DNA from: Boswellia sacra
Lineage: Eukaryota; Streptophyta; Magnoliopsida; Sapindales; Burseraceae
Length of the DNA stretch: 64,000 bases
Direction: 5' to 3'
NCBI GenBank assembly: GCA_013180625.2
Contig: SNVD02007596.1
Span: 226,676-290,675, forward strand
A program made the translations under genes and the position numbers. The notes under the pieces were generated by a model. That model was not told the origin of the DNA. It saw nothing but the letters and a program-made list of their open reading frames with translations, and ran no database searches. Of this stretch, positions 1 through 64,000 are shown piece after piece (the stretch's first letter is position 1; every line of letters begins with the position of its first letter).

Positions 1-1227
1 CAATGAACCCGATGACATGTTATATACCGTTGGAAAGCTCTCGAAGTCTATTTTCTGGAGAAATTTACGGTTTATAAATCCATTCAGTGTACCAAAAGTT
101 GTAATCAAAACAGTGTGAGATGTATAGAAATATAATTCCACAAGCCACTGTAGCATGTATAATACGGGGCCCTGTAGCAAGTCACTGTAGCAGAGTATTT
201 AAACACATTTTAGGGTTTTATTTTCATAACTTGAAGAGGGGAAAACGTGGGAGGAGGCTGCATTTCTGGATTTCTCTCATCCCTTGGAGTTCTTGAAGGA
301 GAAAGAAGATTTTGAAAGAGGAGGAACTACAATTCCAAGAAGATTCATCTACAAAGAAGATTTTCAAAGAATTTGCTAAGTTCTTTCTTTCCTTTTCAAT
401 TCTGGAATTTCTCTGTATTGTATTTGTTATTCTGATTGAATATGTGTAACTAAATCTGAATTGGTTGAGGGTGATTTCAAAGCCCTTGATATGGTTTTTG
501 TGAATTGATTGTGTAAGGAATTGTTATCCAATTCTCTAATTGAAGTTGCTTGTATTCTCCCATATTTAATGCTTATGATTGCTTGCTGATTGTATTTGAG
601 TGGCCAACTGAATATAATCTGGTTGTGATTTATTGCTAGACTAGAAATCTTGATCCGTAATTGTCTTGAATTTCTAATCATTAGTAGCAAAATTGTGATC
701 AGAGATTACAATTGGAGAATATAACCTAAGTTAAATAATCCGAGCTTGTGTGTTTATTGCTTAGATCAACCTATCTTTCTTATCATAATGCATCCATTGA
801 ATTAAACTCAGAGAGCTTGTTCTAGGTTGTTTAATGGATAGAGATTAAATAAAGAGCTTGTTTTATTTAACAACAAAGTAAGGAAAGATTGGGGTAATAG
901 AGCTTGTTATTATCTACGGTTGATAACTTCAATGCTGTAATTAGATGACAATTCTACAATTAATTCGCAAATCCATATCTTGTGGTAGAGAAGGATTCCT
1001 TAACCAGCTTTCTCCCATTGATTTTTCATTCAAATTTACTTTCTGTTTTGTTATTCTTTACTTGCATTCTTATTTCATTTAGTAAATCATTCAACAAAAA
1101 CCCCCCTGTTTAGTTTATTGTTGCTGGAAATAACAAATTCAATTAGAATCAATCCTCGTGGGAACGATACTTACTTATCACTTTATTACTTGTGCGACTA
1201 GTATACTTGCTAGTTTCGAACGCATCA
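1..1227 (+). repeat. 5' LTR of the LOG-carrying element (first ~196 bases missing)
   Basis: Base 1 aligns with 7807 in the 3' LTR, so about 196 bases lie outside the window. The LTR ends in GCATCA at 1227, seven bases before the primer site. A TATTTAA box at 196-202 is the likely promoter, with three CTGTAGCA copies just upstream (148, 172, 185). The two LTRs differ by scattered substitutions, denser after about base 480, so the insertion is not brand new. Confidence 0.9.
148..202 (+). promoter_or_regulatory. LTR promoter: triple CTGTAGCA plus TATTTAA
   Basis: CTGTAGCA occurs at 148-155, 172-179 and 185-192, followed by TATTTAA at 196-202. The arrangement is conserved in the 3' LTR (7953, 7977, 7990, box at 8001). 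In the copy at the right edge of the window the box reads TATATAA (63531). Conservation among three LTRs suggests a functional core promoter with a triplicated upstream element; this is inference. Confidence 0.6.
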
Positions 1228-1233
1228 AGTTTT

Positions 1234-1251
1234 TGGCGCCGTTGCCGGGGA
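1234..1251 (+). other. Primer binding site, tRNA-Asp type
   Basis: TGGCGCCGTTGCCGGGGA lies 6 bases downstream of the LTR end. It is complementary to the 3' end of plant tRNA-Asp including CCA, the usual primer of Athila-lineage elements. It is fully intact. Confidence 0.9.
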
Positions 1252-1340: not shown

Positions 1341-1496
1341 ATGGCAGTAAACTTCTATCAATTCAGTAGCGGATTTGAGCCACAAGTACCATGGAGAGTA
1401 AATGAGGTAAGCACTCCGAACATTGAACAACAACTTTCTGAGCTAACCTCTATTGTGGAAAACATGGCTTGTAGGAGATATGCAAAAATCTTATGA
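1341..1496 (+). pseudogene. gag N-terminal remnant, frameshifted from the main gag frame
   Basis: A short frame beginning MAVNFYQF ends at 1496. It corresponds to the linker that precedes the zinc knuckle in Athila Gag. It overlaps the next frame (from 1453) but lies in a different phase, so a small indel near 1465-1495 separates the two. The several hundred residues normally upstream, including the conserved capsid-like part, are absent because the LTR and leader are followed almost directly by this segment. Confidence 0.65.
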
Positions 1497-2901
1497 ATGT
1501 GGGATATATTCTACGATGGAGCATCCAATCGACATGTATCCAACTTTACAAGAAGAATATATGGAACAAGCCAATGCCATGGGTGGATTTCCAGGACAAA
1601 CGAGGCAATGGTATGATCATTTCTCTAGCACTTACAATGCTGGATGGGAAGATCAACATAATTTCAGTTACTGGAATCATCAACCAATCACCCCAAATGC
1701 CATACCAAATCGGCCACAAGGTTTTAATCAACCTAGAGTGCAGCAACCATTTCAAATGCAACCACCACCAATGCCACATCCAGCACCACAACCAGCTTCA
1801 CAAAACTCAGGTATGTCTCTCCAGGATATTGTTAATGCACTTGCCACTAACACAATGCAATTCCAGCAGGAAACTGGGGCAAGTATCCAAAACCTGGCAA
1901 ATCAAATGGGACAATTGGCCACTAGCATGAGCAAATTCGAGGGCCAAGGCTCAGAAGAATTATCTTGTCAAACGGTGATCAATCCAAGAGAAAATTCTTG
2001 TGCGATAACTTTGCAAAATGGAGAGCAATTAGATGTCCTACCAAAGAAATCACAAACTGATGAAGGAGATGACACCACTTCCACCATGAACAAAACACTG
2101 ACTTCTCAGGTAAATCCTATAACTCCCATTCCTTCATATGTTTCTCCTCCACTTTTTCCTAGTAGATTTGCAAAATCGAAGGAGGAACAAGAACAAGAAA
2201 TCCTGGAAACTTCTCACAAAATCGAGGTAAATATACCACTTCTGGATGCTATCGAGCAAGTACCTCATTATACAAAATGTCTCAAGGAGTTATGCACCAG
2301 CAAAAGAAAGTTAAAAAGAAATGAGAAAGTAAGTGTGGTGGAAGATGTTTCAGCTGTATTGCAAAGGAAAATTCCTCCAAAGTGCAAAGATCCAGGTACG
2401 TTCACCATGCCATGCACCATTGGTAAAACCAAGTTTGAAAGAGTTATGTTAGATTTAGAAGCATCTATTAACATCATGCCATATTCTATTTATGCTTCTT
2501 TAATTCTTGGACCTTTTGCGAAAATTGGTATTACCATTCAAATTGCTGATCGTTTTAATGCATATACCAAAAGAGTTGTGGCAGATGTGCTTGTACAGAT
2601 GAATCAATTGGTTTTCCCAGCAGACTTCTATGTTCTTGAAATGGAGGATGAGACATCTCCTAATCCAACACCAATTCTTTTGGGGAGACCATTCTTGAAA
2701 ACTGCTCGAACTAAGATTGATGTGCATGATGGCACTCTCACCATGGAATTCGATGGCGAGGTGATTCGTTTCAATATTTTTGAGACAATGAGGTACCCTA
2801 GTGACTTGCATTCTTTTTTTGCAGTTGATGTTATTGATTCTTTGCCACAACAACATTTTGAGTTAACTCGCAAGAATGGGATTGGAGTGGTTTTTTATTG
2901 A
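1453..2901 (+). pseudogene. gag C-terminus fused to retropepsin-like protease
   Basis: This 482-codon frame begins in the Athila zinc-knuckle region, but two expected cysteines are tyrosines (CGIYSTMEHPIDMYP), so the knuckle cannot bind zinc normally. A Gln/Pro/Asn-rich linker follows to about residue 150, then a charged spacer. An aspartic protease occupies about residues 315-450, with the flap region and the ILLGRPFL motif before its end. The active-site motif reads D334-L-E-A-S where DLGAS is expected. The glycine-to-glutamate change probably destroys activity. TGA at 2899-2901 interrupts a frame that continues in phase into pol at 2941, so the original product was a Gag-Pol polyprotein. 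Confidence 0.85.
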
Positions 2902-2940
2902 GGGCACATAGGGATAGAAAATTCCAAGGAATCAAGAAGG

Positions 2941-3309
2941 TTGATACAAGTGTCCAAAGAAATGGAGGAAGCTGTGGCAAGCTTAGATGAGACCATAGCT
3001 ATAACCACAAATAGGTATGATGTTTCGTGCATTCAATTTCCTTTATCTAATGTGAAACTTCTGCCTTCTATAATGAAAGCCCCTACCTTGGAGCTTAAGC
3101 CTCTTCCAGATCATTTGAAGCATGGATTCTTGGATAAGAATGATCCTTTGCCAGTTAAAATAGAAATGGGCCTTGCACCACTACAACAAGAGAAACTCGT
3201 CCGAGTACTTAGAGATCACAAAACAGCTATTGGGTGGACGATTGTTGACATCCAAAGGCCCAGCCATATGTATGGACCTGATCTTGTTGGAAAGATCCCA
3301 GCCCACTAG
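2941..3309 (+). pseudogene. Start of pol: protease-RT linker and truncated RT N-terminus
   Basis: In the same frame as the gag-protease and separated from it by one stop codon. It carries the linker and the LVRVLRDHKTAIGWTIVDI stretch that opens the RT of Athila elements. The similarity then ends at a break near 3250-3309. None of the catalytic RT motifs, RNase H or integrase follow. This marks the left edge of a large internal deletion. Confidence 0.8.
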
Positions 3310-3684: not shown

Positions 3685-3868
3685 CAACTTGAGGAAACAT
3701 TCAAACGGGAGTTGAAGCCATTGTTTGAAGGTTTAAAACGTGCATATCTGAGAGAAGAACAAACTCAATCGCATTATCGGTAATATCTGTCCTTTTCTTC
3801 TCTTCAATGGATGCTGATATCTTTCTATCGAACCTTCGTAAATATTTCCCTTCACTTCCTCAAATGCT

Positions 3869-4387
3869 GTGTTTAAAATATATAAAGTACGGATGACTAG
3901 ACTTTGGGCATTGATGCTCCTAAATGTGCCTGCTGATATCCGATGGCTTATCGAAGCCAAGGTGAGATTGTCCGGTGAGCCGGACATTAATCTCGCAAAA
4001 TACATGCCTGGTCCAGGAAAGAGCTACTACGCCAAGAGGCGAAGAGCGAAAAGGTTACAAGTATGTTATAAATGTGCTAGATGGAATTGTAAACAGACTT
4101 GTCGTTCATTAGGTTTTGTGTCCAGGAATAGAGAAGATAAACTTTCATTTATTAAGAATGGTTTGAGTAATGAGTCGCTGGATAATGTTTTGTGAACTCT
4201 CGAGTCACATTCTTGTGGACTTGTTCAACGTGAATTGCTTAATCTATGGACACAATTTCGTGATGAATTGCAGTGTTATAGTCTAGGGAATTTGACTAAA
4301 AAAGACCCTGTTTGCCAGTTTATAAGAAAACTGGATGGGAAGCAAATCCCGACTCATAGAAGGCGTTTCAGCCGTTACTGGACGTAA
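3869..4387 (+). pseudogene. Small basic Cys-cluster protein, plant-virus CRP-like, with premature stop
   Basis: The frame opens at 3869, hits TGA at 4193-4195, then stays open in phase to TAA at 4385-4387. The original product was therefore about 170 residues. Residues 1-45 are hydrophobic to mixed. An Arg/Lys block (YAKRRRAKRL, residues 54-63) is followed at once by a Cys cluster, C66-x2-C69-x4-C74-x3-C78. A basic block directly before a CxxC zinc-finger-like cluster, then a short charged tail, is the layout of the Cys-rich nucleic-acid-binding proteins of Betaflexiviridae (carlaviruses, vitiviruses), some of which suppress RNA silencing. The resemblance comes from recalled family layout, not a search. 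The frame lies where env-like ORFs occur in Athila elements. It could instead be a divergent element-specific protein. Confidence 0.55.
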
Positions 4388-4588
4388 AACCAGAGGAAGA
4401 TGTGAGCCACAATCACAACTACTTTTATATTTGAATGTGTGTTGTTGTTGTCGAATTTTATTTCTTTCTTGTTTCGTTTGATCTGATTATCAATGTTGTT
4501 TTTGTGTTGTTGTTGTTTGTTGATTTTGTTTGTTTTAATTTCAAGTTTTCCTTTTGACAAACCATATGACTACCCTATGGCATAAGTA
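4388..4588 (+). other. GTTGTTGTT-rich spacer
   Basis: A T/G-rich stretch with GTTGTTGTT runs separates the Cys-cluster frame from the hairpin repeats. No coding signal is seen. Its composition matches the T-rich tract before 3684 and could act as an intron interior. Confidence 0.3.
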
Positions 4589-4845
4589 CACGTGGGAGAC
4601 AAGTGTGGAGGTTTTGTCAACCTCCACCGAAAGTATATCTTTACTTTTCATGCTTCACGTTGGAGACAAGTGTGGCGGTTTTTGTCAACCCCCGCCGAAA
4701 GTGTATCTCCGTTTTCCATACTTCACGTGGGAGACAAGTGTGTAGGTTTTGTCAAACCTCGCCGAAAGCATATCTCATTTTTTCAAATCTTGGGGCGATA
4801 AATCTGCATCGAGCAACCCCCACCGAAAGTATGTCCCCATGTGTC
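4589..4845 (+). repeat. 67-68 bp tandem repeat, about 3.8 units, each with a hairpin
   Basis: Units start at 4589, 4656 and 4724 with CACGT(G/T)GGAGACAAGTGT; a degenerate partial unit follows from about 4791. Each full unit holds an inverted repeat around TTTTGTCAA. Unit 1 pairs GTGGAGGTT with AACCTCCAC. Unit 2 pairs GGCGG with CCGCC. Unit 3 pairs AGGTTT with AAACCT. An A-T pair in unit 1 is C-G in unit 2, so the stem is kept while bases change. The shared CCGAAAGTATATCT-like tail follows each hairpin. Confidence 0.85.
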
Positions 4846-4973: not shown

Positions 4974-5625
4974 ATGGAGAAAACACCAATTCGGCGATTC
5001 CGCAATATATGCGTATTTTGCGAATCGCAATTTGGTAAAGATGGAGAGTTTACCACAGCAGCTCTTGATCTTGGTAGGACATTAGCTGCGAGGGGTATTA
5101 ATTTGATTTATGGAGGGGGAAGTCTTGGGTTAATGGGGTGTGTGTCAACAGCTGCATCCCTAGGAGGGAGCAAAGTTCTCGGCATTATCCCTAAACCATT
5201 AGCTGTACGAGATATCGTAGGCAAAACAATCGGGGAAGAGTTACAGGTCTCTAGTATGCATGAGCGTATTGCACATATGGTTGTTAAGTCCGATGCATTT
5301 ATAGCTTTGCCGGGTGGTTATGGTACATTAGAGGAGATATTTCAAATCACCTCTTGGGCACAGCCAAACATCCATCGGAAACCCATTGGTTTGTTAAATG
5401 TCAATAATTTTTTTGATGGTTTGTTGTCCTTTCTTGATCAAGCTGTAGAAAAAAAATTTCATCTCACCGTCAGCAAGGCAAATGCTGGTTACAGCTTCAA
5501 CTGCAGGAGAGTTAATTGACAAACTACAAGAATTCGTTTATTCACCTGATCCAACAATGGCTCAGATAAATTGGTTTGGAGAAGGCAACAAAAGGCGTCA
5601 ACTGGATTTAACCCTCCATCTGTAA
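4974..5625 (+). pseudogene. LOG: Captured intronless LOG gene (cytokinin riboside 5'-monophosphate phosphoribohydrolase), one frameshift
   Basis: LOG enzymes release active cytokinin bases from nucleotide precursors in one step. The frame opens at ATG 4974 and contains the Rossmann-like GGGSLGLMG (residues 47-55), the MHER segment with R98, and the full catalytic signature PGGYGTLEE (113-121). Length and order match plant LOG proteins (about 210-220 residues), closest in my judgement to LOG8/LOG10-like members. After F162 (5457-5459) one extra base in an A8-T3 run shifts the frame and the open frame ends at 5519. The expected C-terminal segment continues in the +1 frame to TAA at 5623-5625. 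Plant LOG genes usually have several introns; none is present, so capture through an mRNA is likely. It has the same orientation as gag. Confidence 0.88.
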
Positions 5626-7610: not shown

Positions 7611-9031
7611 TGATAAGTGTCTATTTATATATCATTTTCATATCAATTCGTCCATGTTTCTTTGCTATATTCCTTGGTATTTTTATGTTTTTGTGTGGTT
7701 TTGATGTTTGTAGGAGTTTTGGAGCAACTTGCACAAAAATGGAGTAAAACCCTTATTTTCACCTCTGCTAGTCAGTGATCTTCTCGGATTTAATTGTATT
7801 GATATACAATGAACCCGACGACATGTTATATACCGTTGGAAAGCTCTCGAAGTCTATTTTCTGGAGAAATTTACGGTTTATAAATCCATTCAGTGTACCA
7901 AAAGTTGTAATCAAAACAGTGTGAGATGTATAGAAATATAATTCCACAAGCACTGTAGCATGTATAATACGGGGCACTGTAGCAAGTCACTGTAGCAGAG
8001 TATTTAAACACATTTTAGGGTTTTATTTTCATAACTTGAAGAGGGGAAAACGTGGGAGGAGGCTGCATTTCTGGATTTCTCTCATCCCTTGGAGTTCTTG
8101 AAGGAGAAAGAAGATTTTGAAAGAGGAGGAACTACAATTCCAAGAAGATTCATCTACAAAGAAGATTTTCAAAGAATTTGCTAAGTTCTTTCTTTCCTTT
8201 TCAATTCTGGAATTTCTCTGTATTGTATTTGTTATTCTGATTGAATATGTGTAACTAAATCTGAATTGGTTGAGGGTGATTTCAAAGCCCTTGATATGGT
8301 TTTTGTGAGTTGATTGTGCAAGAAGTTGTTATCCAATTCTCTAATTGAAGTTGCTTGTATTTTCCCATATCTAATGCTTATGATTGCTTGCTGATTGTAT
8401 TTGGAATGTGGCAACTGTGTAATCTGGTTGTTGTCTATTGCTAGAGTAGAAATCTTGATCCGTAATTGTCTTGAATTTCTAATCCTTAGTAGCAAAATTG
8501 TGATCAGAGATTGCAATTGGAGAATACAACCTAAGTTAAATAATCCGAGCTTGTGTGTTTATTGCTTAGATCAACCTATCTTTCTTATCGTAATGCATCC
8601 ATTGAATTAAATTTAGAGAGCTTGTTCTAGGTTGTTTAATGGATAGAGATTAAATAAAGAGCCTGTTTTATTTAACAACAAAGTAAGGAAAGATTGGGAT
8701 AACAGAGCTTGTTGTTATCTACGGTTGATAATTTCAATGGTGTAATTGGATGACAATTCTATGATTAATTCGCAAATTCATATCTTGTGGTAGAGAAGGA
8801 TCCCTTAACCAGTTTCTCTCATTGATTTTTCATCTGTTTAATTTGCATTGTGTTATTCTTCACTTGCATTAATATTTCATCTAGTTAATCAATCAACAAA
8901 ACCCCCCTCATTTAGTTTATTGTTGCTTTCGAATAACAATTTTAATTAGAATCAATCCTCGTGGGAACGATATCTTACTCATCACTTTATTACTTGTGCG
9001 ACTAGTATACTTGCTAGTTTTGAACGCATCA
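7611..9031 (+). repeat. 3' LTR of the LOG-carrying element, complete (1421 bp)
   Basis: Begins TGATAAGTG after the polypurine tract and ends GCATCA at 9031, giving TG...CA ends. It contains the triple CTGTAGCA and TATTTAA promoter (7953-8007). It closes with the block GTGGGAACGATA, typical of the 3' end of Athila LTRs. The 5 bases after it, CTTAC, are the presumed target-site copy in Tekay LTR sequence. Confidence 0.92.
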
Positions 9032-10270
9032 CTTACATAGTCTTAGTCGACACTCGATATCCGCCTACTTTCCAACACTGGACACCATCCACTCGACCGT
9101 CGACACTTACATGTCGAGTCGTGCATACGACACTCGACACCAGCCACTCGACCCTCGACACTTACATGTCGAGTCGTGCATACGACACTCGACAACAGCC
9201 ACTCGACCCTCGACACTTACATAATCAGACATTCGACACTTACATAATTAGACACACGACACTTTCATAACCTGACACTCGACACTTTTATTATCAGACA
9301 CTCGACACATTCATAATCAGACACTCAACACACACTCGACACTTGACACTTTCATAATCAGACACTAGACATATCATAATCAGAAACTCAACACACACTC
9401 GGCACTCGACACTTACGTGTCGAGTTGTGTCGGATTAAATGTCAGGCTCAAAAGGTACAAAATTGTGAAAATGTTCAGATTTGTCGAATGATCATTTTCA
9501 AATTTCAACCTCTAATTTCAACAATTCACCAAAATTGCATTTTAAATCCAAATTCAATGAAATCAGTGGCTATTTAAAGCTTCATATGTCTATTTTCCGA
9601 AACAAAAGAGAAACTATATAAATCATAGTCGAAAAAAATGCAGCAGATCAAAGAACATAGAACAGTGACATGAATCACAACTTTCATCATGAACAACATC
9701 TCCTTCACTTCATAAGCACATAATTTCACAAGTAATTCATCATCCAAGTAACAAACAATCAATTTAATAATAAATCACATGTATTGCAACCCATATCAAT
9801 TAAAAACAACAAAAATAAATAACACGATTTAAGTATGTGTTAGAAAATCCCTACTTGGTTTTCAAGCCTATACACCTCTTTGATTTTCCCCTTCTTTTCC
9901 TCTCTTTTTCCTCGGTCTCTTTTCTTCTTCTCCTTCTTCTCTCTCTCTCCCTTTAGCTGTAAGACTCTCCTCTTCTGTCACCAAAGGAAAGAAAATCCTC
10001 TCCTTTTGGAACCCTAATGCCTCTTATATATACAGGGCCTTAATTCATGGGCCTAAGTCCACTTATTTTCCAAACACATTTAATCCTTACCAAATTCTAA
10101 CACAAGCCCACAACTATAATCCAACCCAATTCTTATTTTTTCAAACATGGTTTTACAACTACTTCATGGCCTAAAGCCCATCAAATTCAAATAAAATTAC
10201 TCAAATACCCTTAGGCATAGCTTCTATATTTTGTAACATATATGTACATAAATTTTTTTTAAACTCTACA
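9032..10270 (-). repeat. 3' LTR of the chromovirus, truncated by later insertion
   Basis: Aligns with 15590-16884 of the right LTR, including the CGACACTC array, the GCTTCATATGTCTATTTTCC block and the AAACTCTACA end. It lacks the extra 112-bp duplicate seen in the right LTR. The left ~1.2 kb is beyond the window, displaced by element 1. Confidence 0.88.
9036..9425. repeat. CGACACTCGACACTT short tandem array (left LTR)
   Basis: Repeated units built from ACACTCGACACTT followed by ACAT, TCATAATCAG or CACTCGACC. Spacing is about 20-25 bases and irregular. The same array occurs in the right LTR at 15463-15930, so it belongs to the LTR and is not an independent satellite. Confidence 0.8.
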
Positions 10271-10283
10271 ACCTACCCTCCTC
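10271..10283 (-). other. Polypurine tract of the chromovirus
   Basis: On the minus strand GAGGAGGGTAGGT directly precedes the LTR start TGTAGAGTTT. Composition and position fit a plus-strand primer. Confidence 0.75.
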
Positions 10284-10324
10284 AAAAAAATTTCGTCCTC
10301 GAAATTTGAAAATATGAGTAAGAA

Positions 10325-13300
10325 ATTACCTCTTGCATTCAAAAGTAGGGTACTTTCTTTGAATCTCTGACTTTAACTCCCATGTGGCCTCTTCAACACA
10401 TGCTTCCACAAGACCTTGATTAACGGAATGGTCTTGCCACGTAGGACTTGCACTCTTGTGTCCAAGATTTAAATAGGAACCTCTTCATAGGAAACATCTT
10501 GTTGAATATCCAACTCACTTCAATCTAGTACATGTGTTGGGTGAGGCTCATACTTCTTTAGCATCGATACATGAAATGTGTTATGAATTCCTGATAATTG
10601 TAACGGTAATGCTAGCTCATAAGCTACTTCGCCGACCCGTCTTAGAATCTCAAATGGGCCAATGTAGCGTAGAGCTAGTTTACCTTTCTATCCAAAACGC
10701 ATCAAGCCTTTATGCAAAGACACTTTTAAAAACACATGGTCACCCACTTTGAATTCTAACAATCATCTCCTTTTGTCTGCATAGCTGTTGTTGTGTGCAA
10801 ATTCTACAAGTGATAGATGATCCTCGCAATTACCTTGAAAATCCATCACACAAGCCCTCAGCATATCTTCCAAAATTTGAATAGTGCGCTGTGATTGACC
10901 ATCAGTTTGAGGATGGAAAGCTGTACTAAGTAGCAATTGCGTACCCATAGCTTTTTGAAGGCTTTGCCAAAATTGAGTTGTAAACCTGGGATCTCTATCT
11001 GACACCACTGAAACTGGAACTCCATGCAATCTCACAATTTCTTTAATGTACAACCGACTCAAAACATCCACTGAATCGGTTGTACAAATAGGAAGAAAAT
11101 GTGATTCTTTTGTTAACCTATCTACAATCACCCATTTGCATCCTTTCCTCTCAAAGAACGTGGTAATCCAGTAACAAAATCCATGGTGATGTAGTCCCAT
11201 TTCCATTCTGCTACAGGAAGTGGTTGGACTAATCCTGCAGGCCTTTGATGCTCAGCCTTCACTTGTTGACAAGTAAGGCATCTAGACACATATTCAACAA
11301 CATCCTTTTTCATTCCTTTTCACCAAAATTGTCGACGTAAGTCATGATACATTTTGGTACCGCCACGATGAACAACAAATTTAGAGTGATGAAATTCCAT
11401 AAGGATATCATCTGTACACGCTTTACTTGATGGAACAAAGATCCTGCCTTTGAATCATAAACTTCCATCTGAACCAATTGTTCAATCAACACTTCCATCA
11501 TAGAGTAAGACTTGCTCATACAAGGCTCTAGTCTCTAAATCTTGATGTTGCAACTGAATCACTCTATGCACAAGAGACGGTTGAGCAGCAAGTGTAAAAA
11601 GGTGAATTTGATCTCTGCGATCCTCAACCAAGATATCATAATCATGAATAGACTGCAACAAGCTCCATTCTCCTATCATTACACTTACCATAGCTCTCGA
11701 CCTTCTAATTAATGCGTCAGCCACCACATTTGCTTTGCCCGGGTGATATTAGATAGAGAAGTCATAGTCTTCCCAATACTCCATCCATCTTTGTTGTCTC
11801 AAGTTCAAGTCTTTTTGGGTGAAAATGTATTTCAAACTTTTATGATCACAAAAGACTTCAAACCTCTCACCATATAAATAATGTCGCCAAATTTTCAAAG
11901 CATACACTGCTGCAGCAAGTTCTAAATCATGGGTGGGATAATTCTGCTTGTGAGGTTTCAACTGGCGAGAAGCATAAGCTACAACCCGACCTTGTTGCAT
12001 TAACACACACCCTAATCCATTCAAGGAGGCATCAGTGAATACTACATAATCAACTCCACGTTATGGTATCACAAGAATAGGTGTTAAAGTTAATCTTTTC
12101 TTCAATTCTTGGAATGCTTGCTCACATGCATCACTCCATTCGAATTTGACTCCTTTCCTTGTTAACCTAGTCATTGGTGCAGCCAATGGAGAAAAGTTCT
12201 CAACAAAACGCTGATAGTAACTTGCTAGACCTAAAACGCTACGTACTTCAAACACATTCTTTGGTCGTTCCTATTTCATAATTGCTTCCACTTTTGATGG
12301 ATCCACTGAGATTCCTCGTCTTGACACCACATGGCCTAAAAATTTTACTTTTGATAGCCAAAATTTGCATTTACTCAGCTTGGCATAAAGACGATGCTCT
12401 CTCAGTGTTTGAAGTGCTATACGTAGATGTTGCTCTTATTCAACTTCAGATGAAGAATAAATAAGGATATCATCCACAAATACAATTACAAATTGGTCTA
12501 AGTAAGGTTTAAGAAAACGGTTCATCAAATCCATAAAGGTAGCAAGAGCATTAGTTAGTCCAAATGGCATTACCAAAAACACATAATGCCCATAACGGGT
12601 ACGAAAAGTGGTCTTTGGTATGTCTCATTCCTTTATTCTCAACTAATGATAACCTAAACAAAGATCTATCTTGGAAATACAACAAGATCCTCCTAACCGG
12701 TCAAACAAATCATCGATCCTAGGTAAAGGATATTTGTTTTCACTGTAACCCGATTTAACTGACTGTAATCTATACATAAACACAATGAACCATCTTTCTT
12801 CTTCACAAACAATGATGATGCACCCCAGAGAGAAGTACTAGGTTGGATGAATCCTTTTTCTAACAATTCTTCTATTTGTAGCTTTAGCTCCCTCAACTCT
12901 ACTGGAGCCATTTGGTAAGGAGAAACTGATATAGGTGCCACACTTGGATAGACCTTGATAGCAAACTCCACTTCTCTAGTTGGAGGTAACCGGGGCAACT
13001 CTTCAGGAAAATCACTTATCACACGAGGAAGTTCAGAAACCCCTTTATTAGTCTCTTCTACTAATATACTTGCTATCATGTTCCTGATCCCTTTATTGTT
13101 TTGCGACCCAAGCAGAGGGTAATGCAATGATGCATATTTGTCCCCATAAAAATTGAAAACAATCCCCTCAGGCATGTGAATTATCACTTTCTTTTCGTAA
13201 CAGTCTAATATAACTCGATAAGTTGACAACCAATCCATTCCTAATACACATCATACTTAGTGAAATCCATAAGTATCAAATCGAATGACAACATGTGCCC
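10325..13300 (-). pseudogene. Chromovirus pol: protease, RT, RNase H, integrase, chromodomain (decayed)
   Basis: Pieces in order on the minus strand. The protease end has the MDWLSTY motif (13238). RT starts near 13000 with the [16 protein letters not shown] segment, and has FVDDIL at about 12446-12480 and its tail at 12255-12061. RNase H is at 12024-11749 ([11 protein letters not shown]). Then come the H2C2 zinc-finger part of integrase (11313-11128), the integrase core with the VVSDRDPRF motif (11206-10763), and the GPF module near 10660 (RYIGPFEIL). A C-terminal chromodomain ends EATWELKSEIQRKYPTFECK near 10330. Frameshifts and stops separate all of these. Product would be the polyprotein for replication and chromatin-guided integration. 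Confidence 0.88.
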
Positions 13301-13479
13301 ATTGATCTATAACACACAAGAACGACATATCCTCCTAACTTCTAAGGTACTGCCCATGGGTGACTCCTCGCGTAGTACAGACTCCAACAAATCAGACTCT
13401 AATCCTAATGCAGATGCAAAATGAGTAGATATAAAGGAACGAGTTCTCTGTCTCTTAGCTGAACGATCAAGCTCTCATA

Positions 13480-14234
13480 TTCCTCTAGAAGGTAAGCCAA
13501 CACCCCCCATTTTATGACTCTAAGAGATCTCCTGTTCTGTAACTAAGACAGTCTCCACCACATCAGCATATGTCGCCAATCTACATACTGCAACTGAGGG
13601 TCTAATGTCATCTCTCAATCCCTTTTGAAAGCTCCGAGCCTTGCTAGCCTCATCTGCTACTAAACCAGGTGTAAAACGGGATAAAGCAGTAAATCATGCC
13701 TCATATTGTTGCACTGTCATATTCCCCTGTGTCAAGTATATGAACTCATTTTCCTTTTGATCACAAAAAAACTGTAGGAAAATATTTGTCTAGAAAGGAA
13801 ATAGATAAATCTCTCCAAGTAATGATATTTCCTTCTCTAATACGCTCAACAGATGTCCACCACTGTAATGCATCTCCTGTCAACAAGTGGGTTGCCACCC
13901 TGACCCATAAATCTTCTTCAACTTGCAAAAGGTTAAAGAGGCGCTCAACTCGTATAAGTCAGTCTTCTGCAACATTCAGATCGGGCTCCCCATGAAAAAT
14001 AAGAGGATTGTGATGTTGGACCGCTCTAAGAGCATTCTGCATTCGATTATCAACACCTGTCACTAATACCGGTTGAGGTGGTGGTGGTGGGTTAGCACGA
14101 AGAGTATCTCTAACTATGTTTGCCACTGTCTCTGCCAGTGTACTGGCCACATCTCTCATAGCCCTATAAAACTCTAACCTTTCACCACCCGCAGGTGGAT
14201 TGGAACTCGAAGCACCTCGAGTACGAGAACTCAT
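13480..14234 (-). pseudogene. Chromovirus gag (decayed)
   Basis: The minus-strand start MSSRTRGASSSNPPAGG at 14234 lies about 155 bases downstream of the primer site. The open frame continues to 13959 through a Pro-rich segment and the GEPDLNVAED motif. Similarity carries on in shifted frames through the typical WWTSVERIREG-like Gag core to about 13750. Beyond that stops accumulate and no clear CCHC knuckle was read. Confidence 0.78.
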
Positions 14235-14390
14235 TATCTCATTTTATCAATGGCAAAAACTATATGGCAGAATTCTATAACATATAGAACAAAAACATAA
14301 CAAACAAGTATTCAAGGCACATGCAAGCACACAAGACATAACTCTACCCCTCCCAAACCATCTACATCCTTTTCCTAGGTCCACAGTAAA

Positions 14391-14408
14391 GCTTAGGCTC
14401 TGATACCA
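14391..14408 (-). other. Primer binding site, initiator tRNA-Met type
   Basis: Minus-strand TGGTATCAGAGCCTAAGC, three bases inside the 5' LTR end, matches the 3' end of plant tRNA-iMet, the usual chromovirus primer. Confidence 0.88.
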
Positions 14409-14522
14409 CTCTGTCACGCCCTAAAATCTTTTATTTAGAGACTTTGAGGGTGATTGATTAAGAAAATAATAAAAAGACATCATCAATATCTCATTTTTTT
14501 AATATAAATCACTTTCCAATTC

Positions 14523-14525
<3 letters not shown>

Positions 14526-14571
<46 letters not shown>
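14526..14571. repeat. (AT)n microsatellite
   Basis: About 46 bases of alternating A and T with one C interruption, inside the chromovirus 5' LTR. Confidence 0.9.
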
Positions 14572-14576
<5 letters not shown>

Positions 14577-14980
14577 CACATAAATCCATTACAACATCTG
14601 GCTATTTGTTCAAGATAAACTTTATATACACTGCTGACCAAACTTAGTACATAGGTTGATAATCACATATTAAAATTTCCTACCACGACTTAGGCTAGTC
14701 AAAACATTTCCCAAAACCATTGTATGCATGCAAACGCCATACTCCCTAGGAAAGCTCTGTAACACCACTAGTACGAATACCTTTTTGTGTACCTGTGAAG
14801 GGAGGGGGTGAGCATATAGCCCAATAGGAAAGATTCTAACATTATACTAAATCACAAGCATTCAAACAGCTACTCAATTACATAGTTACACAACCAATTA
14901 TAATGAGTCAAGCAGTCATTCTCATTCGCACATCAAGGTATCACTTGTTCACTTGACAATCAAAATTTTTCATCTAATGT

Positions 14981-15345
14981 TTCCCTTAGACCCGTATCTA
15001 AACGGCCCATCCAAGGTCTAACATTTCAAGTTTATATTCGTGTTCCCCTTGGATCCGTATCTAAAACAGCCCATCCAAGGTCCAACACATCGAGTTTATA
15101 TTTGTGTTCCCCTTGGATCCGTATCCAAAATGGTCCATTCAAGGTCCAACACATCGAGTTTATATTCGTGTTCCCCTTGGATCCGTATCCAAAACGGCCC
15201 ATCCAAGGTCCAACACATCAAGTTTATATTCGTGTTCCCCTTTGATCCGTATCCAAAATGGCCCATCTAAGGTCCAACACTAAGAATTTCATGTCCGCAT
15301 TCTCCTTGGATCCGTATTCAAAACGGCCCATCCAAGGTCCAGTGC
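14981..15345. repeat. 64-bp tandem array, six units, in chromovirus LTR
   Basis: Units begin TTCCCCTTGGATCCGTAT at about 14981, 15043, 15107, 15171, 15235 and 15299. Each contains CCTTGGAT and, about 18 bases on, its inverse ATCCAAGG, so every unit can form an 8-bp stem. End units are the most diverged. Confidence 0.85.
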
Positions 15346-15462
15346 ATACACTTATAAACCTTTCAATATAATTTCCAAAATAAGTCTCAAGGCAATACAG
15401 TTTTTATGAAAAATCCAGACCGGTCAAGAGGGTACACACAGGTCGGGTCAGTTTTGTTACAT

Positions 15463-15930
15463 CACAACCGACGCTCGACACTTACATCACAACCGACGCT
15501 CGACACTTACATCACAATCGACACTCAACACTTACATCACAACCGACACTCGACACTTACATAGTTGTGTCAGATCCACTCATCACTTGACACTTACATA
15601 GTCTCACTCGACACTTGATATCCACCTACTTTCCGCCACTCGACCCTCGACACTTACATGTCAAGTCGTGCGTACGACACTCGATAATAGCCACTCGACC
15701 CTCGACACTTAAATAATTAGGCACTCAACACTCACATAATCAGACACTCGATACTTTCATAACTAGACACTCGACACTTTCATAACCTAACACTCGACAC
15801 TTTCATAATTAGATACTCGATACATTCATAATCAGACACTTGACACTTTCATAATCAGACACTCGATACATTCATAATTAGAAACTCGACACATACTCGA
15901 CACTCGACACTTATGTGTTGAGTCGTGTCG
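15463..15930. repeat. CGACACTCGACACTT short tandem array (right LTR)
   Basis: About 20 irregular units of roughly 22 bases. The left part repeats ACACTCGACACTTACATCAC; the right part has TCATAATCAG spacers. It mirrors the array at 9036-9425. Confidence 0.8.
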
Positions 15931-16604
15931 GATTAAATGTTAGTCTCAAAAGATACAGAATTGTGAAAATGTTCAGATCTGTCGAATGATCAATTCCATA
16001 TTTCAACTTCCAATTTCAACAATTCACCAAAATTTAATTTTAAATCCAAATTCAATGAAATTAGTGGCCATTTAAAGCTTCATATGTCTATTTTCCGAAA
16101 CAAAAGAGAAATTAAATAAATCATAGTCCAAAAAAATGCAGCAGCTCAAAGAACATAGAACAGTCACATGAATCACAACTTCCATCAAGAACAACATCTC
16201 CTTCACTTCATAAGCACATAATTTCACAAGTAATTCATCATCCAAGCAACAAATAGTCAATTTAACAATAAATCACATGCGTTGCAACCCACATCAATTA
16301 AGAACAACAAAAATAAATAACAAGATTTAAGTATAGTGTCAAAAAATTCCTACTTGGTTTCCAAGCCTATATACCTCTTTGATTTTTTCCTTCTTTTCCT
16401 CTCTTTTTCCTCCGTCTCTTTTCTTCTTCTCCTTCTTCTCTCTCTCTCCCTTTAGCCGTAAGACTCTCCTCTTCTATTGCCAAATGAAAGAAAATCCTCT
16501 CCCTTTGGAACCCTAGTGCCCCTTATATATACAAGGTCTTAATTCATGGGCCTAAGTCCACTTATTTTCTAAACCCATTTAATCCTTATCAAATTCTAAC
16601 ACAA

Positions 16605-63137: not shown

Positions 63138-64000
63138 TGATAGGTGTTTATTTATGTATTACTTTCATATCAATTCGTCTATGTTTCTTTGCTATATTCC
63201 TTGGTATTTTTATGTTTTTGTGTGGTTTTGGATGTTTGTAGGAGTTTTGGAGCAACTTGCACAAAAATGGAGTAAAGTCCTTCATTTTCACCTCTGCTAG
63301 TCAACCATCTTCTCGGATTTAATTGTATTGATATACAATGAACCCGATGACATGTTGTATACCGTTGGAAAGCTCTCGAAGTCTATTTTCTAGAGAAATT
63401 CACGGTTCATGAACTCATTCAGTGTACTAAAAGTTATAATCAAAACAGTGTGAGAAGTGTAGAAATATAATTTCACAAATCTCTGTAGCATGTATAATAC
63501 GGGGCACTGTAGCATGTTACTGCAGCAGAGTATATAAACACATTTTAGGGTTTTGTTTTGATAACTTGAAGAGGGGAGAACATGTGGGAGGCTTCAGCTC
63601 TGGATTTCTCTCATCTCCTGGAGTTCTTGAAGGAGAAAGAAGGCTTGGAAAGAGGAAGAACTACAATCTTAAGAGATTTTCATCAAATTTGCTAAGTTTT
63701 CCCTTTCCCTTTCATTTTCTGGAATGTCTCCATATTGTATTGTATTTGTATTGTGTCTGAATATGTGTAACTAAATCTGAATTGGTTGGGGGTGATTTCA
63801 AAGCCTTTGATATGGTGTTTGTGAGTTGATTGTGCAAGAAATTATTATCCAATTCTCTAATTGAAGTTGCTTGTATTTTCCTATGTTCAATGCTTATGAA
63901 TACTTGCTGATTGTATTTGGGTGGCCAACTGAATATAATCTGGATATTGTCTATTGCTAGATTAGAATTCTTGATCCGTAATTGTCATGAATTTCGAATC
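63138..64000 (+). repeat. LTR of a second element of the LOG-carrying family (cut by window end)
   Basis: Starts TGATAGGTGTTTA and follows the LTR at 7611-8480 base for base with scattered differences. It contains the triple CTGTAGCA-like motif and a consensus TATATAA box (63531). It is inserted in Tat D in plus orientation. Whether it is a solo LTR or a full element cannot be seen. Confidence 0.9.

Follow-up and report, generated by a model that had tools for sequence, protein, structure and literature searches.

A LOG gene and a carlavirus-type zinc-finger gene as probable accessory genes of a plant retrotransposon family of putative Ty3/gypsy type

The window analysed here is a stretch of 64,000 nucleotides of the Boswellia sacra genome (contig SNVD02007596.1, positions 226,676 to 290,675 of the forward strand). 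It harbors a long terminal repeat (LTR) retrotransposon with two additional genes, namely a relative of the cytokinin-activating LOG genes and, 0.8 kb upstream of it, a zinc-finger gene of carlavirus type (NABP). We consider it likely that both are working accessory genes of the element, because both are under purifying selection between element lineages. The genome searched comprises 638.6 Mb in 7431 contigs, and the window lies within the contig that we denote C3858.

The first-pass annotation of this DNA, made by inspection of its letters, described an intronless LOG coding sequence, and homology searches confirm the relationship. The open frame starting at 4974, on the gag strand, matches AtLOG3 (PDB 2a33) with E=1.1e-55 and AtLOG8 with E=3.4e-47, contains Pfam PF03641 (E=2.2e-33, 115.7 bits, cut-off 27) and has both GGGSLGLMG and PGGYGTLEE. 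The characteristics of the LOG family are thus found, the GGGxxGxMG and PGGxGTxEE motifs in the window itself and the Lysine_decarbox fold in a relative, P0001; the two motif patterns fit 82 and 78 of 93 full-length relatives, respectively. In a fold search with the AlphaFold2 model of P0001 (pLDDT 90-98 in the core blocks and about 48 in the last 17 residues), AtLOG3 2a33 was the best match (E 8.4e-25, TM-score 0.97 by target length). The annotation further placed a frame break after residue 162. Indeed, in-frame homology stops at about residue 162-163, the open frame ends at 5519, and LOG-like sequence resumes in another frame at 5458-5622, as recognized by eye and from the same residues in open copies; the 55-residue shifted piece alone reached no model in a Pfam scan. 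Intact copies would possess putative phosphoribohydrolase activity, while the window copy is truncated.

The partner gene, which the annotation does not mention, is represented by an open reading frame at 3893-4195, which fits both Viral_NABP PF05515 (E=1.5e-9, 38.6 bits, cut-off 23) and Carla_C4 PF01623 (E=2.1e-5, 24.8 bits, cut-off 20.9). Protein search yielded 81 relatives, the named ones coming from Populus, Striga, Orobanche and Citrus, and RAKR is present in all 81. When 22 chosen homologues were aligned with the window protein, PF01623 was found in 22 and PF05515 in 20 of the 23 members at E<=0.01. Chance similarity was considered and rejected, since two Pfam families exceed their cut-offs in the window and are also found in the relatives. 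The AlphaFold2 model of NABP is poor (pLDDT 51) and was not used for any fold search. A scan of viral contigs with the NABP alignment returned 34 stretches fitting a pattern, none of which was confirmed.

Both genes are abundant in the genome. Searching with the window LOG DNA gave 535 first-look candidates, 40 of which were scored; here and below, first-look counts are loose and scored counts are lower bounds. All 40 (window included) have 97-100% identity and span the 652 bases in full or with one base missing. Five of them are open over 216 residues, seven end at 181 as the window does and 28 elsewhere. The annotation's guess that sister copies may be intact was therefore correct, and further open copies exist in both clades introduced below. 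With an 81-residue fragment of AtLOG3 we obtained 8961 first-look candidates and scored 150; each of these covers 78-81 residues, with an identity of 54-60%. A single one contains an internal stop, and 64 lie in open frames that are 216 residues long or longer. Judged from such matches, the genome holds well over a hundred intronless LOG sequences. The contig of the window carries one further LOG of this family, which is open to its end (L060, C3858:383-1085).

The surroundings of LOG are conserved as well. Sequence from behind LOG in the element follows it in 39 of 39 fetched copies, and NABP adjoins LOG on the 5' side in 36 of the 39, longer open NABP frames occurring among them. Of the exceptions, L034 and L041 end at contig edges, and about 1.5 kb upstream of LOG in L039 is without a match. 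Because these copies were found via LOG itself, the 36/39 represents the share among LOG-bearing elements. The possibility that LOG is a separate later insertion, which the annotation had named as a refutation, was rejected, given that the copies have the same neighbours on both sides. For the NABP region, first-look candidates numbered 1848; 40 were scored, and every one of them was a full match. Three stretches were found through NABP: in L010, LOG is present but carries an internal gap, and the fetched sequences of L051 and L052 stop short of the LOG place. Integrase similarity occurs upstream of NABP in 14 of the 39 LOG copies. In L065, a member of the second LOG clade, integrase, NABP and LOG follow each other on one strand, with the integrase core (PF00665, E=1.7e-17; PF17921) directly upstream of NABP. 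By comparison with such relatives, the window element is a broken copy of a family, probably of Ty3/gypsy type and with Athila as a candidate lineage, in which NABP and LOG are located behind the polymerase genes.

Selection was assessed on twelve further LOG places fetched from the AtLOG3 matches, seven of them belonging to clade A (window-like) and five to clade B. Three clade B sequences share 68-70% identity with the window across 162 residues, and the other two share 73-79% across shorter stretches. The set for the ratio of nonsynonymous to synonymous substitution rates (dN/dS, w) consisted of eight places in which 214 codons or more follow the start, together with five open copies; L055, L057, L058 and L064 were dropped, and in L053 and L062 the extreme end is different. 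In all 30 A-B pairs, LOG has w of 0.18-0.23 by NG86, and bootstrap of the pair L063-L054 gave 0.11-0.29 (498 of 500 replicates usable). Without correction, six pairs have ratios of 0.33-0.37 when read in the correct frame and of 0.85-1.48 in the two wrong ones, and differences between LOG pairs are most numerous at third codon positions (56/36/101 in one example). The NABP gene behaves similarly: against the 118-codon open stretch of L065, all 14 clade A copies compared have w of 0.13-0.18, bootstrap of one pair gave 0.07-0.27, and the pooled uncorrected value inside clade A is 0.49. The comparison of copies proposed in the annotation thus gives dN/dS of about 0.2 between clades, which does not resemble passive cargo. 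From these values, LOG and NABP look like genes that are used by active elements and decay after each dead insertion.

The element LOGs differ from the LOG genes of the host in structure. When a 53-residue piece of AtLOG3 served as query, 150 places were scored. In the eight best of these the match starts at residue 17-19 with 75-89% identity, and we read them as host exons beginning at an intron border; three contain a single TAG according to the match list. In the remaining 142 the match begins at residue 1 or 3 and extends to 53, across the host intron border. Four of the eight places were fetched and two read in detail (L067 and L069); each consists of seven exon pieces, and their tails have neither a basic run nor LxLxL. 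Since host exons are split by introns and the element copies are without them, we infer that the element LOGs derive from a spliced message. The mRNA capture suggested in the annotation therefore stands as to its spliced source, while its placement in the window element does not: the capture is old and common to the whole element family. L067 and L069 share 53-56% protein identity with element LOGs of both clades, and P0001 is 45-48% identical to six host LOGs.

Element-like LOGs end in KKRK-LDLTLRL or similar, that is, in basic residues followed by LxLxL, an element-specific tail that the annotation had not noticed. The latter is located near the C-terminus in 72 of 93 full-length relatives and in none of them within the first 190 residues. 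An exact LxLxL ending occurs in 30 of 40 thinned relatives, compared to 0.14 expected from shuffles. Among 120 host LOGs, none has LxLxL in the last 17 residues and none has three consecutive basic residues in the last 20. In the window, LxLxL is present solely in the shifted frame. The tail agrees with the sequence definition of the EAR motif, LxLxL being one of its two consensus forms, and LxLxL proteins bind TOPLESS according to PMC8126959. It is likely disordered, as indicated by the low confidence of this part of the P0001 model. Early-branching rows of our tree (P0063 and P0025) have the basic run without LxLxL, and it may be that the tail was built up stepwise.

That tree contained 84 rows: 40 thinned homologues (from 91 length-filtered out of 120), window residues 1-162, five own copies, 36 thinned of 120 host proteins and two own host genes. 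The element-like rows (46) split from the host rows (38) at 100/100 support; the host rows belong to the LOG1/3/4 and LOG8 classes, with L067 in addition, LOG5 and LOG7 not being among the classes sampled by name. Alternatively, LOG may have been captured at least twice independently from host paralogues, and the low dN/dS would then reflect host constraint before capture. In a first tree clades A and B were not sisters and stood beside different foreign proteins (93/88 and 96/88), the genomic context of which is unseen. Nevertheless, both clades share the basic-LxLxL tail, which is absent at the C-terminus of 120/120 host LOGs, both have the same NABP neighbour and gene order, and the element-like LOGs form the single clade at 100/100, with the sampling just described. 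We thus regard separate captures as quite unlikely.

The 120 listed LOG relatives include 25 proteins of Reevesia pubescens with 14 different chromosome labels, which fits mobile copies. Many homologues stem from short 'ena' contigs, which are conceivably transcripts. In Populus trichocarpa, the protein with the name LOGL10 (P0033) clusters with the element LOGs, and in Citrus x changshan-huyou one gene model (P0173) joins NABP and LOG. It is likely that element genes have been annotated as host genes in databases in these two cases.

Several observations speak against working accessory genes. Firstly, decay is common: 35 of the 40 nearest LOG copies are not open to the end, 86 of the 150 scored LOG places have frames below 216 residues, and LOG, NABP and pol are all broken in the window. 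Secondly, the 40 nearest copies evolve nearly neutrally (60 synonymous, 116 nonsynonymous and 9 stop singletons; 26/70/4% expected); w is 0.67-1.87 among L037, L039, L041, L044 and L049 and 1.27 in the close pair L053-L056. Thirdly, the A-B ratios are rough because dS between the clades exceeds 1, the copies of the selection set were chosen from matches to AtLOG3, and selection could in part have acted in the host before capture, should the two clades stem from separate captures. Further, most element-like rows of the tree are proteins without seen genomic context, LxLxL occurs elsewhere in the protein in 6 of 120 host LOGs, and the Cys-cluster pattern fits just 36 of 81 NABP relatives. Finally, NABP may not be a capture, as the viral gene could instead have originated from it.

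The decay of the nearest copies, with a window copy that is broken and without polymerase, would be expected if LOG and NABP were passive passengers, captured once, replicated by the polymerase machinery and of no use to the element. Values of w around 0.2 between LOG clades and around 0.15 for NABP, long open frames at 64 of 150 scored places and a tail kept across diverse relatives are difficult to reconcile with this explanation, and we find it unlikely.

If LOG and NABP are indeed accessory genes, they likely aid the element by changing host cell growth or silencing. We suggest the following course of events. A spliced host LOG mRNA would have been captured in an ancestral element. Intact LOG copies might then convert cytokinin riboside monophosphates to active cytokinin in cells that transcribe the element, and the tail might direct LOG to the nucleus and to corepressors of TOPLESS type. 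The NABP protein may suppress silencing or alter transcription by analogy with its viral relatives: viral CRPs suppress silencing, and Chrysanthemum virus B p12 also acts as a transcription factor inducing hyperplasia (PMC12172455). Together, LOG and NABP could push cells to division, or to a meristem-like, less silenced state, and new insertions might reach the germline from such dividing, poorly silenced cells. The complete picture of a widespread element lineage that commandeers growth control in this manner, with a nuclear TOPLESS-recruiting LOG and an NABP silencing suppressor leading to meristem-like cells and germline access, is rather speculative, and we put it forward tentatively.

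Another imaginable process acts at the level of RNA: small RNAs derived from LOG would silence host LOG genes, and the protein would be irrelevant. The numerous copies could yield small interfering RNAs. Constraint at the protein level would then be unnecessary, though, and the two own host LOGs are just 53-56% identical to element LOGs as proteins. Moreover, the compared exons of these two host genes (two of the eight host matches) share at most 11 and 10 consecutive bases with the window LOG on the same strand. The annotation's proposal of small-RNA action on host LOG genes thus looks weak, and we take this explanation to be highly improbable.

The complete element lies on the plus strand, starting 199 bp upstream of the window and ending at 9031, with LOG between its LTRs as the annotation had described. 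Its features and the beginning of a related LTR are as follows (window coordinates).
1-1227, plus strand: 5' LTR; its first 199 bp are upstream of the window (contig start 226477, read from L068).
1234-1251, plus strand: primer binding site TGGCGCCGTTGCCGGGGA, read from the sequence and presumably matching plant tRNA-Asp.
1447-2901, plus strand: putative gag-protease remnant, an open frame of 484 residues, named by position and sequence.
2902-3309, plus strand: short stretch, putative start of pol, named from its sequence.
3690-4400, plus strand: NABP gene region, broken here; the open part, 3893-4195, is shorter at both ends than in relatives.
4589-4785, plus strand: three repeats of about 67 bp between NABP and LOG (repeat family D10), two of them opening with CACGTG.
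4974-5519, plus strand: LOG open frame of 181 residues, LOG-like to residue 162 or so.
5458-5625, plus strand: remainder of LOG in another frame with tail NKRRQLDLTLHL, found by eye; open copies share its residues.
7611-9031, plus strand: 3' LTR (TGATAAG...GCATCA), from the LTR alignment, with a G-rich purine tract just 5' of it.
63138-64000, plus strand: beginning of a further LTR of this family (87% identity), truncated where the window and contig end.

Paired LTRs, a primer binding site and remnants of gag and pol identify an LTR retrotransposon, the tRNA identity and the gag and pol names being putative. The LTRs are 94% identical, with a Kimura two-parameter distance of 0.048 (1417 sites, in two separately counted pieces). 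At substitution rates of 1.3e-8 to 7e-9, this corresponds to an estimated insertion age of about 1.9-3.5 million years. No 5-bp target-site duplication was seen (TTCTT before the 5' LTR, CTTAC after the 3' LTR) in this single old copy, which abuts another element. Pfam scan of the gag-protease frame and the pol-like stretch reached no model cut-off, and no reverse transcriptase or integrase is found 3' of the pol-like stretch in the window copy. Because relatives carry integrase upstream of NABP and the window copy does not, the latter is likely a deletion derivative.

The G-box CACGTG at the head of two of the three repeats makes an internal LOG promoter conceivable. A second LTR element (9030-15998) directly adjoins the 3' LTR; its direct repeats (9030-9500 and 15591-15998) enclose minus-strand open reading frames which, by eye, resemble Ty3-type pol, and 64-bp tandem units (five copies listed) are situated in or near it at 14936-15319. 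The window DNA is AT-rich (36% GC).

If our assumptions are true, then plant retrotransposons, mostly viewed as targets of silencing, act on host development and defence in the way viruses do. Element copies such as P0033 have probably raised the LOG gene counts reported for plant genomes. The results also bear on the origin of the carlavirus-type zinc-finger gene, as this gene was found in many plant chromosomal copies.

The presence of LOG in Gypsy elements has already been published, whereas our literature search, with most subscription journals outside its scope, returned no report of the NABP partner, the selection or the tail. Two Athila-like elements with similarity to LOGL4 are reportedly named in an abstract by Steinbauerova et al. 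from 2011 in Genetica. The closest known systems are the Gypsy elements of Citrus sinensis, C. clementina and Populus trichocarpa, whose consensus contains a YgdH/LOG domain (PMC9289625, with reference to Steinbauerova et al.). Like the element described here, they carry a LOG coding sequence inside a plant Gypsy element, but the accessible part of that paper gives no NABP partner, selection analysis, tail motif or comparison with host introns. PMC9289625 also describes Gypsy elements of Phalaenopsis which, as here, have a host-type enzyme as an extra open reading frame; the enzyme is a different one, an m6A RNA demethylase, and its activity was demonstrated in vitro, whereas our LOG is known from sequence. 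The CRP/NABP of carlaviruses and relatives (PMC12172455) resembles the element protein in PF05515 and PF01623 and in the basic stretch before the Cys cluster, the difference being that the gene described here belongs to an LTR retrotransposon with many chromosomal copies (40/40 scored). Finally, the plant LOG1/3/4 and LOG8 proteins have the same fold and the same GGG and PGG motifs as the element LOG, which differs from them by absence of introns and by its C-terminal basic run and LxLxL.
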